Assembly (NCBI GenBank): GCA_013348725.1
Contig: CP054689.1
Coordinates: 1,104,501-1,168,500 of the forward strand
Direction: 5' to 3'
Length of the DNA: 64,000 nucleotides
From: Ectothiorhodospiraceae bacterium 2226
GTDB lineage: Bacteria; Pseudomonadota; Gammaproteobacteria; GCA-013348725
Every line of letters starts with the position of its first letter. Position 1 is the first letter of the stretch. Positions 27,194 to 38,118 of this stretch are shown piece by piece. Below the pieces are notes generated by a model. The model worked only from the letters and a program-made list of their open reading frames with translations, made no database searches and had not been told where the DNA came from. The translations under genes and the position numbers were made by a program.

Positions 27194-28060
27194 TTACAGC
27201 CAGTACACGAAAATAAACAGGAACAGCCAGACCACGTCCACGAAGTGCCAGTACCATGCCACCGCCTCGAACCCGAAGTGGTTTTTGGGGGTAAAGTGGC
27301 CCTTAATGCTGCGCGCCAGGATCACGATCAGCATGATCGCCCCAAGCGTGACGTGTAGCCCGTGGAAGCCGGTCAACATAAAGAAGGTTGAACCGTAGAT
27401 GCCGCTCTGCAGGGTCAGGTTCAGGTCCTGATAGGCGTGCGCATACTCGTAAGCCTGGAAGCCCAGGAACACCAGACCCAGGGCGATGGTGGCGGCCAGC
27501 CAGGTGATCAGCTTGCGGCGGTTGTTCTCTTTCAGGCCCCAGTGGGCGATGGTGATGGTCACGCCGCTGGTCAACAGGATTAGCGTGTTCAGTGCGGGAA
27601 TGCCCCAAGCACCGATGATCTCGAAGTCCTGCGCCAGACCCGGGCCAGCCGTCGGCCAGGCAGCCTCGAACTGCGGCCACAACAACAGATGCGTCATCTC
27701 GTTATTGGGCTCGCCCCCCAGCCACGGCAGCACCCACATACGCACGTAGAACAGCGCCCCGAAGAACGCCGCAAAGAACATCACCTCCGAGAAGATGAAC
27801 CAGCTCATTCCCCAACGGAACGAGCGGTCGACCTGATCGTTGTAAAACCCACTCAGGCTCTCGCGGATTACCGTGCCAAACCAGCCGAACAGCATGTAGA
27901 TCAGGATCGCGGCGCCGATCAGCATCAGCCAAGGACCGGCCGTGGCGTCGTGCAGGGTATTCACCAGGCCCAGGGCCAGGAAGAACAGCGCAATCGACCC
28001 TACCAACGGCCAATGGCTTGGCTGCGGCACGTAATAGCCTCCACCATGCGCGTGTGCCAT
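27194..28060 (-). CDS. ctaE: Cytochrome c oxidase subunit III
   Basis: 288 residues, seven membrane helices. Subunit III stabilises the oxidase core and guides protons to subunit I. Seen: WFGTVIRESLSGFYNDQVDR, WFIFSEVMFFAAFFGALFYVR with its conserved Glu, and GLHVTLGAIMLI plus WYWHFVDVVWLFLFIFVYWL at the end. Last gene of the caa3 structural unit. Confidence 0.95.
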   Translation of the reverse strand: MAHAHGGGYYVPQPSHWPLVGSIALFFLALGLVNTLHDATAGPWLMLIGAAILIYMLFGWFGTVIRESLSGFYNDQVDRSFRWGMSWFIFSEVMFFAAFFGALFYVRMWVLPWLGGEPNNEMTHLLLWPQFEAAWPTAGPGLAQDFEIIGAWGIPALNTLILLTSGVTITIAHWGLKENNRRKLITWLAATIALGLVFLGFQAYEYAHAYQDLNLTLQSGIYGSTFFMLTGFHGLHVTLGAIMLIVILARSIKGHFTPKNHFGFEAVAWYWHFVDVVWLFLFIFVYWL

Positions 28061-32490: not shown

Positions 32491-33162
32491 TCAATCGGGG
32501 AGGCGAAGCCTCGCGGCGGATGCCGCAAGCGCGGCGGGGGCGGGTTCGAAGGGAAGCGTGCCGAGCAGCGGCGCCGGCAGGCGCTCACACAGCGTGGCGA
32601 TGTTCTCGTGCAACCGTGGCATGGCGGGCTCGATACAGTTGGCGACCCAGCCGGCCAGGCGACAGCCACCGCTTGCGATGGCCGAGGCGGTAAGGAGCGC
32701 ATGGTTGAGGCAACCGAGGCGCATGCCCACCACCAGCACCACCGGCAGACCGAACGCGGCCGCGAGATCGCCCGCTTCCAGTTCAGGCGCCAGGGGCACG
32801 CGCCACCCGCCCAATCCTTCCACCACCACGGCGTCGGCGTCGCGCGTGAGCCGCGAGTACGCCGCCCGCACCACCTCGAGCTCGACGGTCACGTGCGCCT
32901 CGGCGGCGGCGATGTGCGGGGCAATGGCGGGCTCGAAGGCATAGGGGTTGACGTCGCCGTAGGGCGCCGCGGTCGCGCTCGCCTCGATCAAAGCGAGGGC
33001 GTCCTCGTTGCGCAAGCCGTGCGCGCTACGCAGGCACCCGCTGGCCACGGGCTTCATCGCCACGGTGCGGTACCCCTGCGCGCGCAGCCGATGCACCAGG
33101 GCGCAAGCCACCCGCGTCTTGCCGATGCCGGTGTCGGTACCGGCCACGAACCAGCCTTTCAT
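32491..33162 (-). CDS. bioD: Dethiobiotin synthetase
   Basis: 223 residues. BioD closes the ureido ring of dethiobiotin from diaminopelargonate, CO2 and ATP. P-loop GTDTGIGKT at residues 8-16, then TVAMKPVASGC and the substrate strand VVVEGLGGWRVPL. Last gene of the biotin run; overlaps bioC by four bases (ATGA). Confidence 0.95.
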   Translation of the reverse strand: MKGWFVAGTDTGIGKTRVACALVHRLRAQGYRTVAMKPVASGCLRSAHGLRNEDALALIEASATAAPYGDVNPYAFEPAIAPHIAAAEAHVTVELEVVRAAYSRLTRDADAVVVEGLGGWRVPLAPELEAGDLAAAFGLPVVLVVGMRLGCLNHALLTASAIASGGCRLAGWVANCIEPAMPRLHENIATLCERLPAPLLGTLPFEPAPAALAASAARLRLPD

Positions 33163-34049
33163 CGGCGGCGCGGGCGCAGGTCATCGAGCGACACACGCGC
33201 CACACCGGCCGCGTCGGCTGGCGCGGCACGGGGCACCCAGGCGTGGCCGTACACGACCTCGTAGGTGGCAGGCAGGCGCCCGGCGCTGCGGTGCGGCTCG
33301 TAGGCCTCGACCACGCGGCGCAGGTGCCCGCGGCCGGTCAGCCCGTGCGGCCGCCCCAGGGTGGCGTTGCGTCCCCCAAGGGTCTTGAGGTCGCGCATCA
33401 GGTCGAGCGCCTCGGGATAGGTGACGCACAGGGACTCCATGTCCATCACCGGATCCGCGAAACCGGCGCGCAACAGCGCGTCCCCGATGTCGTGCATGTC
33501 GATGAAGGCGTTCACGTGCGTGTGCGCGTCGGCCGCGCGCCACGCCTCGCGCAGCTCCTTGAGGGTATCCGGCCCGAAGGTGCTGAACAGCAGCAGGCCG
33601 TCGGGGCGCAGCACGCGGCGGATTTCGGCGAACGTGCGGTCGAGGTCGTTGCACCATTGCAGCGCCAGGTTGGAGAACACCAGATCCACACTCCCCGCGG
33701 CGAGCGGCAGCGCCTCGGCATCGCCACATACGAAATGCTGGCGGCCGAACCAGCGTTGCCAGAGCGGACGCGCGCCGCGCGCCTCGCGCAGCATCCCGGG
33801 TGCGAGGTCGAGCGCGTACACGTGGGCGTCGCCGTAGCGACCGGCCAGGGCGCGGGCCGCCGGCCCCGTGCCCGCCCCCAGGTCCAGCACGGCCGCCGGC
33901 CGCAGACGCACGAGGTCGAGGCGTTCCAGCAGCCGGCCACGCACCTCACGTTGCAACACGGCAACCCCCTCGTAGGCCGGCGCCGCCCGGTCGAAGGACC
34001 GACGCACGCGCGCCTTGTCCACCCGGTATACGTCGTCGCGCTCACTCAT
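33159..34049 (-). CDS. bioC: Malonyl-ACP O-methyltransferase
   Basis: 296 residues, somewhat longer than E. coli BioC (about 250). BioC methylates malonyl-ACP so that the fatty acid system can build the pimeloyl chain. SAM motif [17 protein letters not shown], acidic DLAPGML, and the later FSNLALQWCNDL stretch, all typical of BioC. Its ATG lies in the bioH stop region (eight-base overlap), and its stop overlaps bioD. Confidence 0.92.
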   Translation of the reverse strand: MSERDDVYRVDKARVRRSFDRAAPAYEGVAVLQREVRGRLLERLDLVRLRPAAVLDLGAGTGPAARALAGRYGDAHVYALDLAPGMLREARGARPLWQRWFGRQHFVCGDAEALPLAAGSVDLVFSNLALQWCNDLDRTFAEIRRVLRPDGLLLFSTFGPDTLKELREAWRAADAHTHVNAFIDMHDIGDALLRAGFADPVMDMESLCVTYPEALDLMRDLKTLGGRNATLGRPHGLTGRGHLRRVVEAYEPHRSAGRLPATYEVVYGHAWVPRAAPADAAGVARVSLDDLRPRRR

Positions 34050-34791
34050 CGAGAAACTCCCGTATCCACGCGCTCACCTGTTCAGGATTGCTCACAAAGG
34101 GGGCGTGGCCCGCGCCGCGCAGGAGCCGCAGCCGCGCATCGGGGAGCGCCGCGGCGACGGCCTCCAGCGCGGCGGGCGGCGCCAGCGTGTCGCGTTCGCC
34201 GCCGATCAACAGCACCGGCTGGCGCACGCGGGGGAGCAGCCCGCGCAGATCGGCCCCGCGCAAAATCGACAGGCCCGCGCGCAAGGCGCCCGGCGCCGGT
34301 GTGGGCGCCGCATCCAGGGCCACCCGCAGGTCGCGCACGTCGGCGCGCGCACCGCGCGCCTGCAGCGCCAGGAAGCGCAGCAACGTGGCGCGATGGTCCT
34401 GCGCCAGCTCGGCCGCAAAGGCCTCTAGGACCGCCGGCGCCACCGCGTGCGGCCAATCGTCGGCGCTCACAAAGCGGGGATTGGAGGCCACCAGCACCAA
34501 GCGGCGCACGGCATCCGGCGCGGCTGCCGCGACCGCGAGCGCCACCATCCCGCCCAGCGACCAGCCCAACCAATCGGCCCCGCGCGGCGCTTGTGCCGCG
34601 GCATCCTGTGCCCAGTTGGAGAGTAGCGCCGCGCCCGCCCCGTCTTGGACCGGCTCGGCAGCGCGCGGACCATGCCCCGGCAGCGCGAGCGCGGCCACCG
34701 CGCGCTCGGGCAGCGTCGCGCCGAGCGGCGCGAGAAAGCCCGGGTGCATGCCCCAGCCATGCAGCAGCACCAGGGGCTCAGGACGGGGCAC
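34042..34791 (-). CDS. bioH: Pimeloyl-ACP methyl ester esterase
   Basis: 249 residues, alpha/beta hydrolase. BioH removes the methyl group from pimeloyl-ACP methyl ester and ends the BioC-started chain. HGWGMHPG oxyanion region near the start, nucleophile motif GWSLGG, Asp in GGERDTLAPP and His in GAGHAPF. No ATG is available: of two close GTG codons, the second (34791) has six bases after AGGAGG and was taken. The start lies 14 bases inside the bioF end. Confidence 0.92.
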   Translation of the reverse strand: MPRPEPLVLLHGWGMHPGFLAPLGATLPERAVAALALPGHGPRAAEPVQDGAGAALLSNWAQDAAAQAPRGADWLGWSLGGMVALAVAAAAPDAVRRLVLVASNPRFVSADDWPHAVAPAVLEAFAAELAQDHRATLLRFLALQARGARADVRDLRVALDAAPTPAPGALRAGLSILRGADLRGLLPRVRQPVLLIGGERDTLAPPAALEAVAAALPDARLRLLRGAGHAPFVSNPEQVSAWIREFLDE

Positions 34792-35962
34792 GACCACCCT
34801 CCTGCGCCCAGGCGTCGGCCAGCGCGCGCACCAGGCGCGAGACCTGCTCCGGTTCGTGCGCGGCGCTCAGGCTCACGCGTAGGCGTGCCCCGCCCGGCGG
34901 TACCGTGGGCGGGCGGATCACTCCGACCAAGACGCCCCGGGCGCGCAAACGCTCGCCAAGGGCGAGCGCACGCGTCACGTCGCCGACCGGTACGGGTTGA
35001 ATAGCGGTGTCGGAGGCGAGCAGCGGCAGCGTGTGCGCGGCGGCCTCGGTGCGAAACTGGGCGACGCGCTCGGCGAGGCGGCGGCGGCGCCAGGGCTCTT
35101 CGCGCACCAGCGTAACCGCGGCCAGGGCGGCGGCTGCGATCGCGGGGGGCAGTGCGGTGGTGTACACATACGGGCGCGCCTGCTGAATCAGGGTCTCGAT
35201 CAGCACCTCGTCGGCGGCGACGAACGCGCCGAAGGTCCCGAGCGCCTTGCCGAGCGTGCCCATCAGCAGCGGCACGGCCTCGCCGGTCAAACCGTGCTGC
35301 GCCACGCTGCCCTCCCCGCCCGAACCGCACACCCCCAAGCCGTGAGCGTCGTCCACCATGAACCACGCCCCCGCGGCCTGCGCCGCTTGCGCCAGGGCCG
35401 GCAGCGGCGCGATGTCGCCGTCCATGCTGAATACCCCGTCGGTGACCACCAAGGCGGGGCGCTCGGCGCGGGCGATGGCGTCCCCGAGTGCCGCGGCATC
35501 GGCATGGCGGTAGCGCACCAGGCGGGCGCGTGCCAGCACCGCGGCATCCAGCAGGGAGGCATGATTGAGCCGGTCCTGCAGTACCGTCTCGCCGCGGCCC
35601 ACCAGCGCCGTGACGGTGCCCAGGTTGGCCATGTAGCCGGTGGAGAACAGCAGCGCACGCGGGCGGCCCACGAAGGCCGCCAAGGCCGTTTCCAGTTCCT
35701 CGTGGACGGCGCTGTGACCGCCCAGGAGGTGCGAGGCACCGGCGCCCGTCCCGTAGCGCTCGGCAGCCTCCGCCAGCGCCTGGCGCAGCGCGGGGTGCGC
35801 CGCTAGGCCGAGATAGTCGTTGCTGCGGAAATTGAGGTAGCGCCGGCCGCCGATCACCACCTCGGGTCCCTGCGCACCGCTCAATACCTCACGACGCCGG
35901 TACAGGCCCTGCTGCGCGCGCTCGGTCAACGCGCGCGCCAAGGCGGCGTGGCGCGCGTTCAC
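34778..35962 (-). CDS. bioF: 8-amino-7-oxononanoate synthase
   Basis: 394 residues, PLP-dependent alpha-oxoamine synthase. It joins pimeloyl-ACP and alanine. Seen: N-terminal [17 protein letters not shown], cofactor site [10 protein letters not shown], and the PLP lysine in [13 protein letters not shown]. Starts with GTG, overlapping the bioB stop by four bases (GTGA). Confidence 0.95.
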
Positions 35963-36939
35963 GCCTCAGCGCTGAGGGGCGCCTCGGAGCGCGGCGCCTC
36001 GGGCTCGATACCCAGGCGCGCAAACAGGGCGCGGTCGGCGGCGGCCGCCGGATTGTCGGTGGTCAGCAGCTTCTCGCCGTAGAAGATCGAGTTGGCGCCC
36101 GCCAAGTAACACAGCGCCTGCAGTTCGTCGCTCATCGCCTCGCGGCCGGCGGACAGGCGCACGTGCGAGCCCGGCATCAGCACACGGGCCACGGCCACGG
36201 TGCGCACGAATTCCAGGCCGTCCAGCGCGGCCTGGTCGGCCAGCGGCGTGCCCTCCACCCGCACCAGCATATTGATCGGCACGCTCTCGGGATGCGGGTC
36301 CAGGGTCGCCAGTTGCACCAGCAGCCCCGCCCGGTCTGCACGCGCCTCACCCATACCGACGATGCCGCCGCAACAGACTTTCAGGCCCGCGCCGCGCACG
36401 TGCTCCAGCGTCTCCAGCCGGTCCTGATAGGTGCGGGTGCTGATGATGCTGCCGTAGAACTCGGGCGAGGTGTCGAGGTTGTGGTTGTAGTAGTCGAGCC
36501 CCGCGTCGGCCAACTCCTCGGCCTGCCCGGCGTCGAGCATGCCCAGGGTGGCGCAGGTCTCCAAGCCCAACGCCTTGACGCCGCGCACCATCTCCGCCAC
36601 CCGTTCGAGATCCCGTCCCTTCGGCCGCCGCCAAGCGGCCCCCATGCAGAAACGGGTCGCGCCCTGCGCCTTGGCCGCGCGTGCCTGCGCCAGCACCGCC
36701 TCGGCGTCCATCAGGGCCTCGGGCTCCACCGGCGTGTCGAAGCGCACGCTCTGCGGACAGTAGGCGCAGTCCTCCGGGCATTTTCCGGTCTTGATGCTCA
36801 GCAGCGTGCTGATCTGGACGCGGTTGGGGTCGAAGTGGGCGCGATGCGCCTGCTGCGCGCGGTACATCAAGTCCGCGAACGGGAGCTCGAACAGGGCGAG
36901 CACCTCATCGCGTGTCCAATCGTTGCGCACAGCGCTCAT
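35959..36939 (-). CDS. bioB: Biotin synthase
   Basis: 326 residues, radical SAM enzyme that inserts sulfur into dethiobiotin. Cluster motif CPEDCAYC in [14 protein letters not shown], then the conserved [13 protein letters not shown]. The ATG at 36939 overlaps the stop of the upstream membrane protein gene (ATGA), so bioB depends on translation from it. No bioA is in the window; it must lie elsewhere if the route is complete. Confidence 0.96.
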
Positions 36940-37325
36940 TGTTCGTCTCCATCCAGGTGCATCGCGACGTCGGTCCAGTGGTCCTGCCGAATGCGGTAAA
37001 GGTCGTAGACCGACCAGGGTATGAGTATGGCGGCGGCCACCGCCCAGGTGATCAACCAATAGGTCGGGTCGGTGCCGAAGAAGGCCGCGACCACCACGAT
37101 GAACCCCGCCACCCCGTACAGCCGATAGGCAGCGATCTGGGTGTAGTATCCGACCTTGGGGTTGGGGTTGTGGCGATTCATGGCGTACACCAGCATGGAG
37201 CCGCCCAACCAGAAGATGCCCAGCGGGAAGGGCACCAGCGCCGCCACGATGTTCCCATAGTTGAACAGCGCGGCCGCACTGCGCGCGCTGCGCGCCGTTA
37301 CCACATGCGAAGAAGAATCGGTCAT
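36936..37325 (-). CDS. Membrane protein of unknown function, first gene of bio operon
   Basis: 129 residues with about four membrane helices: [21 protein letters not shown], then [19 protein letters not shown], and [39 protein letters not shown] loop joins the first two. The C-terminal tail is charged. No family recognised. It is coupled to bioB by an ATGA overlap and lies directly after the bio promoter and operator, so it is made with the biotin enzymes. Possible roles are transport or simple chance co-transcription; it does not look like the biotin transporter BioY. Confidence 0.75.
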
Positions 37326-37385: not shown

Positions 37386-37413
37386 ATGATACGGCGCGCG
37401 GATCGGCTGTCAA
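37386..37413 (-). promoter_or_regulatory. Sigma70-type promoter of the bio operon
   Basis: On the minus strand a consensus -35 TTGACA (37408-37413), a 16-base spacer, and -10 TATCAT (37386-37391, five of six matching). A start near 37379 leaves about 54 bases before the membrane protein ATG at 37325. The -35 lies in the left arm of the BirA-type operator. Confidence 0.8.
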
Positions 37414-37439
37414 CCGAGCGACGAGGGAGGGGTTTACAT
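37407..37439. promoter_or_regulatory. BirA-type biotin operator
   Basis: CTGTCAACC, 15 bases, GGTTTACAT. The known BirA operator is TTGTAAACC-N14/16-GGTTTACAA; the arms match at seven and eight of nine positions. It covers the bio promoter -35 on the minus strand and the ribosome site plus ATG of comF on the plus strand. The biotin-bound repressor BirA would shut off the bio operon here. birA is not in this window. Confidence 0.8.
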
Positions 37440-38118
37440 GTGGTCATCGATCGGCCACTGGCTGCTGGCGGGCCGCTGCGCCCTGTGTCTCGCGCCCGCC
37501 CGCGCGGGCCTTTGCCCCGGCTGTCTCGGCGACCTGCCCCGCCTCGGTCCGGCCTGCGCCCGCTGCGCGCGGCCGCTGGCCAACCCTACGAGCCTGTGCG
37601 GCGCCTGCCAGCGCCGCGCGCCGCTGGTCAGCGCCGTGCACGCCCCGTTCCGCTACGCAGCGCCGTTGGACCACCTGATCCAAGGACTCAAGTTTCGCGC
37701 GCAGATTCAGCATGCGCGCGGTCTCGGGCGGCTGTTGGCCGAGCACCTCGACACCCGCCGCAGCGAGCCCTGGCCGGAGCTGATTGTTCCCGTGCCGCTG
37801 CATCCCGCCCGCCTGCGCGGCCGCGGTTACAACCAGGCCTTGGAATTGGCCCGGCCGGCCGCGCGACATCTCGCACTGCCGCTGGTGGCCGACGCGTGCC
37901 GACGCATCCGCCCCACCGCGCAACAGACCGGGCTGTCGGCCAAGGCGCGCCGCGCCAACGTGCGCGGCGCATTCGAGCTCGCGCGCCCGCTGCCCGCCAG
38001 GCATGTGGCGGTGGTGGACGACGTCATGACCACCGGCCACACCTTGGAGGCGATGGCCGAGGCCCTGCTCCGCGCGGGCGTAGAGCGCGTCGAGGCATGG
38101 GTGCTGGCGCGCGCCTAA
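37438..38118 (+). CDS. comF: ComF-family phosphoribosyltransferase-like protein
   Basis: 226 residues: a Cys-rich N terminus ([26 protein letters not shown]) that probably binds zinc, and a phosphoribosyltransferase fold with the PRPP motif [13 protein letters not shown]. ComF/GntX proteins assist uptake of single-stranded DNA in competent bacteria. GAGGGAGG lies before the ATG, all inside the biotin operator, so repressor binding could also affect comF. Divergent from the bio operon, a common placing in gammaproteobacteria. Confidence 0.9.

Follow-up and report, generated by a model that had tools for sequence, protein, structure and literature searches.

The window, by which we mean the whole 64,000-nucleotide stretch of DNA that was analysed, contains a biotin operon and a gene of the comF type that are transcribed away from each other across a compact gap (Table 1). 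The operon lies on the minus strand in the order orf129-bioB-bioF-bioH-bioC-bioD, and its promoter serves orf129 first and bioB next. The comF product matches PF18912 and PF00156 above cut-off and carries the phosphoribosyltransferase motif DDVxTTGxT in the form DDVMTTGHT; the TIGR00201 and GntX models also match it, both below their cut-offs.

Table 1. Genes and predicted regulatory features of the bio-comF region, with positions counted in the window.
Feature	Position	Strand	Basis
bioD	32491..33162	-	AAA_26 domain; operon position
bioC	33159..34049	-	TIGR02072 above cut-off
bioH	34042..34797	-	TIGR01738 above cut-off
bioF	34778..35962	-	Aminotransferase I/II domain; operon position
bioB, biotin synthase	35959..36939	-	Domain search
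orf129, membrane-type protein without family name, first gene of operon	36936..37325	-	Profile searches, structure model
bio operon -10, TATCAT	37386..37391	-	Spacing identical in 62/65 loci
bio operon -35, TTGACA, within left arm	37408..37413	-	Sigma70 scan; cross-locus spacing
Predicted BirA operator, left arm CTGTCAACC	37407..37415		Consensus and genome scan; almost invariant in 110 loci
Predicted operator, spacer of 15 bases	37416..37430		15 is the commonest spacer length, 63/110 loci
Predicted BirA operator, right arm GGTTTACAT, overlapping comF start	37431..37439		Consensus, genome scan, class sample
comF Shine-Dalgarno run GAGGGAGGGG, largely in spacer	37423..37432	+	Sequence, by eye
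comF (ComFC/GntX-type, double zinc ribbon and PRTase), ATG 37438-37440	37438..38118	+	Open reading frame and domain searches

Within the gap, a palindrome at 37407-37439, CTGTCAACC-GAGCGACGAGGGAGG-GGTTTACAT, consists of two 9-base arms separated by a 15-base spacer. Scored against the BirA consensus TTGTAAACC-N14/15-GGTTTACAA, as quoted in PMC545781, it is identical at 15 of 18 positions at spacer 15, which bears out the initial annotation of this DNA, where the arms had been likened to BirA sites at that same count. In a scan of the whole 2.96-Mb genome this was the sole place with at most three mismatches at spacer 15, and the operator pattern read backwards, scanned over the whole genome at the same mismatch limit and spacer, gave no match. 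The runner-up within the window, at 27840-27873 (14 of 18, spacer 16), is most likely a chance match.

The palindrome is closely fitted to both of the flanking genes. The only sigma70-like match in the 1.8 kb between 36600 and 38400, where 0.2 would be expected, is a minus-strand promoter scoring 11 of 12, with TTGACA at 37413-37408, a gap of 16 nt and TATCAT at 37391-37386; the earlier placement of the bio -35 within the left arm is therefore confirmed at 37413-37408. On the other side, comF has its first in-frame start codon, an ATG, at 37438, and the right arm ends on the first two bases of this codon. The initial annotation had assigned both the comF ribosome site and the ATG to this arm, and this holds only in part: the arm takes in the final two G of the Shine-Dalgarno run and the A and T of the ATG, but the run itself (GAGGGAGGGG, 37423-37432) lies mostly in the spacer.

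BirA acts both as biotin ligase and as repressor (PMC5438404), and an HTH-less BirA had been put forward as grounds for abandoning the operator. This refutation fails, as the single BirA of the genome (contig 1, at about 2.0476 Mb) has an HTH_11 domain (PF08279, residues 7-55) in addition to the ligase and C-terminal domains. Among the 49 genomes behind the named loci, BirA was full-length including the HTH region in 32, HTH-less in 12 (a ligase match starting at model position 60-77) and unclassed in 5. Sites matching at 13 or more of 18 positions occurred in 22 of the 32 genomes with full BirA and in none of the 12 with HTH-less BirA (Fisher p 6e-5), and the association was also seen when the comparison was limited to loci with comF and bioB divergent (Fisher p 4e-4). 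At six loci of Accumulibacter/Propionivibrio type and Methylophaga (L082, L089, L092, L095, L098 and L059), BirA is HTH-less and the operator is absent, and the divergence of comF and bioB is kept. We infer that BirA-biotinyl-AMP would bind the palindrome and repress the bio operon in the source species because this is established BirA biology (PMC5438404), and BirA control of the operon is, as a prediction, well supported.

The core pattern TGTAAACC-N14-16-GGTTKACA was found in 32 of the 369 class genomes scanned, whereas its reversed form, run as a control, occurred in 2. In most of the loci with the real pattern ComF begins exactly at the right arm with ATG-GTT-TAC-AA(C/G), encoding MVYN/KW. 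As these loci had been picked by their operator, comF was also sampled blind to it, in 80 named genomes and in 110 loci of the class. The first operator-blind set comprised 110 comF loci (the 80 named genomes and the first 30 of the class sample); bioB was divergent in 98 of them, and 48 of these 98 had a site matching at 14 or more of 18 positions, counts that are non-independent trials as the loci share descent. At the same threshold, permuted palindromes gave a mean of 0.3 and the bodies of comF genes gave 0. In the class sample, in which descent is likewise shared and which is tilted towards ComF near an alignment seeded from operator-bearing loci and whose fractions are as such not class-wide frequencies, comF was divergent from bioB in 91 of 110 loci, with a site of at least 14/18 in 41 of the 91. 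The right arm was read in one comF frame (x-GTT-TAC-AAx) in 40 of these 41 site-bearing loci, and in 31 of them the ATG abutted the arm, ending on its first G. A chance resemblance might be suspected from the presence of another 14/18 match in the window, at 27840, but the site studied here sits on the bio promoter, is unique in the genome and is conserved across loci. We rejected a chance match, the probability of which is negligible, on the grounds of genome uniqueness, the permuted-palindrome control and the reversed pattern. A full core match at L026 (in G100) lies at the start of a non-comF open frame (MVYSRLVRRL...) with no bio gene within about 3 kb, and the control count suggests that this one is a chance match.

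Loci selected by their left arm permit the two arms to be considered separately. Across 110 such loci the left arm hardly varies, which is what a -35 would need, with the selection itself contributing, and the unselected right arm retains the repressor consensus. In another set of 75 loci chosen by the left arm, the right arm matched at 7 or more of 9 positions in 47, against 0.07% of in-frame control positions. The position of the start codon varies. The ATG most commonly abuts the right arm, and in the window it lies three codons later, inside the arm (GGG-GTT-TAC-ATG-TGG). In Pseudomonas loci L080, L084, L088, L097, L108 and L109 it lies at -29, and in several Luteimonas, Lysobacter and Xanthomonas loci at about -35, upstream of the left arm; in both groups comF encloses the entire operator. 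It is the operator that stays in place, with the comF start codon shifting around it. Genome G109 has a relocated comF: the bioB side (L016) retains the operator together with a 13-codon comF stub, MVYKWLFFVQVCP-stop, and the relocated gene (L162) retains ATGGTTTACAAG without the left arm. The predicted operator has thus outlived the comF gene at this bio locus. Five loci of Lysobacterales type (L040, L043, L048, L070 and L079, from Luteimonas, Lysobacter and Dokdonella) have a variant right arm, GGTTGACGG, which gives the comF strand a second TTGAC.

Constraint on the first codons of comF extends beyond the residues that they encode. In left-arm-selected loci the Val codon was GTT in 51 of 59 cases, where 6.6 would be expected from the same genes, and among the site-bearing loci the Tyr codon was TAC in 38 of 38 cases, where 25 would be expected. 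The operator thus appears to fix the first codons, and with them the N-terminus, of comF. The converse explanation, that V-Y-N/K-W is retained for the sake of the protein and that the likeness to a BirA half-site is incidental, would account for the Trp codon that often follows the arm and is seemingly kept at the protein level, and for the MVYKW of the relocated L162. However, it would not account for this bias in synonymous codons, and most of ten inspected comF genes without an adjacent divergent bioB do not start MVY; we regard it as very unlikely.

Being inverted repeats that at many loci flank the ribosome site and start of comF, the arms might instead fold into a hairpin in the comF leader RNA and hide the ribosome site, with the likeness to BirA sites secondary. 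However, the two bases of the central pair are complementary in just 21% of 110 loci, the left one being C throughout and the right one T in most, which is the BirA consensus base. Moreover, several Pseudomonas and Lysobacterales loci have both arms within coding sequence, the site tracks the HTH type of BirA, and in the predicted fold of the comF leader of the window the arms are not paired over their length. The state of the central pair, together with the predicted fold, led us to reject a hairpin, which we consider scarcely credible. We therefore return to the palindrome as the predicted BirA operator of the bio operon, with a conserved overlap with comF, and put the probability of this reading at roughly 85%.

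When biotin is plentiful, a BirA-biotinyl-AMP dimer would occupy both arms, cover the -35 and switch off orf129-bioBFHCD. The right half-site falls on the beginning of comF, which is transcribed the other way, and the operator would set the first codons of this gene. Since the Shine-Dalgarno run is in the spacer and the ATG is at the right arm, a comF transcript with a leader can begin only within the operator or upstream of it, and one carrying its own Shine-Dalgarno run would start at or to the left of 37423. Bound BirA would be at or just downstream of this start and would be likely to hinder comF by promoter occlusion or as a roadblock, and when biotin is short BirA would leave and comF would be released. 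The effect on comF could even be of opposite sign if the two opposed promoters interfere with each other. Judged from this geometry, we would give an effect of biotin and BirA on comF expression an even chance, with its sign uncertain. A comF promoter was sought in the window and as a positional consensus across loci, and nothing convincing was seen in either; the best plus-strand candidates are weak and scattered, with 9% above a 5% null threshold, and loci with an abutting ATG show a weak excess of sigma70 positions at -50 to -41 from the left arm (4 against 1.2 expected).

These considerations bear on a more economical interpretation, in which the operator serves the bio operon alone, the comF start is near it simply through the compactness of the gap, and the N-terminal codons follow passively from the operator. 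The geometry of the -35 and left arm fully accounts for the site on the bio side, no conserved comF promoter was found, and where comF has been relocated the operator remains with bio (L016/L017). In contrast, the overlap has persisted in many lineages although comF could have drifted off, and a leadered comF transcript that must cross or start in the operator would be expected to be affected unless BirA is easily displaced. We give this interpretation, under which BirA binding would leave comF expression unaltered or trivially altered, slightly less than even odds. The alternative of joint control, in which BirA would control comF as well as bio through the half-site set into the first comF codons in many Gammaproteobacteria, biotin would tune a DNA-handling step that depends on ComF, and a transcription factor site would have kept N-terminal residues of the protein fixed for long spans of evolution, is a tentative proposal that we hold to be possible but somewhat against the odds.

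Parts of this arrangement are already known, namely the BirA site common to the divergent bioA and bioB of E. coli and the position of comF beside bioH. In E. coli, bioO is likewise a single BirA operator between divergent genes (bioA and bioBFCD), the transcription of which it represses (PMC5438404). There, however, both are biotin genes, whereas in the window the operator has comF as one of its neighbours, with a half-site at the comF start codon. The delta-proteobacterial BirA sites of PMC545781 (Table 1) share the consensus used here, as well as the TGTcAACC/GGTTgACA variants, and one Desulfovibrio vulgaris bioB site, listed at +6 from the start codon, is a precedent for coding overlap (PMC545781), although the overlap there is with a biotin gene and comF is not involved. 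The comFC-bioH neighbourhood of Serratia, and gntX-bioH in E. coli (PMC5438404), also place a comF-type gene divergent from a biotin gene, but the partner is a free-standing bioH, stated in E. coli to be outside BirA control (PMC5438404), and not a bio operon with an operator between. An operator inside comF and the resulting codon constraint are undescribed in the literature searched, with most subscription journals outside the search and priority as such uncertain. The accessible part of PMC9302846 has a neighbourhood-figure legend that names ComF and BirA-site dots, and this may be an earlier notice of the neighbouring site.

The analysis turns a guess from a single genome into a prediction for many species, that the binding site of a repressor also serves as the beginning of an unrelated protein. 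How far the choice of synonymous comF codons is constrained can be measured, and silent recoding can part operator from protein. Should comF respond, a protein required by transformable bacteria would turn out to have biotin limitation as a new input, and this would help to account for the neighbourhood of comF and biotin genes, which has been noted before without explanation. Helicobacter pylori ComFC is needed for natural transformation and has a four-Cys zinc finger and a phosphoribosyltransferase domain, the same domain types as comF of the window, according to the accessible part of PMC9005727, which mentions no link to biotin; the comF product of the window may have such a role in transformation. 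The genome also encodes homologues of ComEC and DprA, but an E. coli control matches for both, and these homologues therefore say little about competence here. A link between the biotin operator and DNA uptake is speculation.

The first gene of the operon, orf129, belongs to a family of about 130 residues that matched no Pfam or NCBIfam name. It has the motif NRHHPNxRVGHYTQQAAYRFYG and a confident predicted structure of four helices (pLDDT 92), for which a fold search against the PDB gave no solved relative. At L190 and L202, orf129 is divergent from comF, and bioB is absent from the approximately 1 kb of sequence beyond it. The gene is present in 16 of 114 class genomes and adjoins bioB in 15 of these 16, and orf129 is as such a candidate for a new biotin-linked protein.
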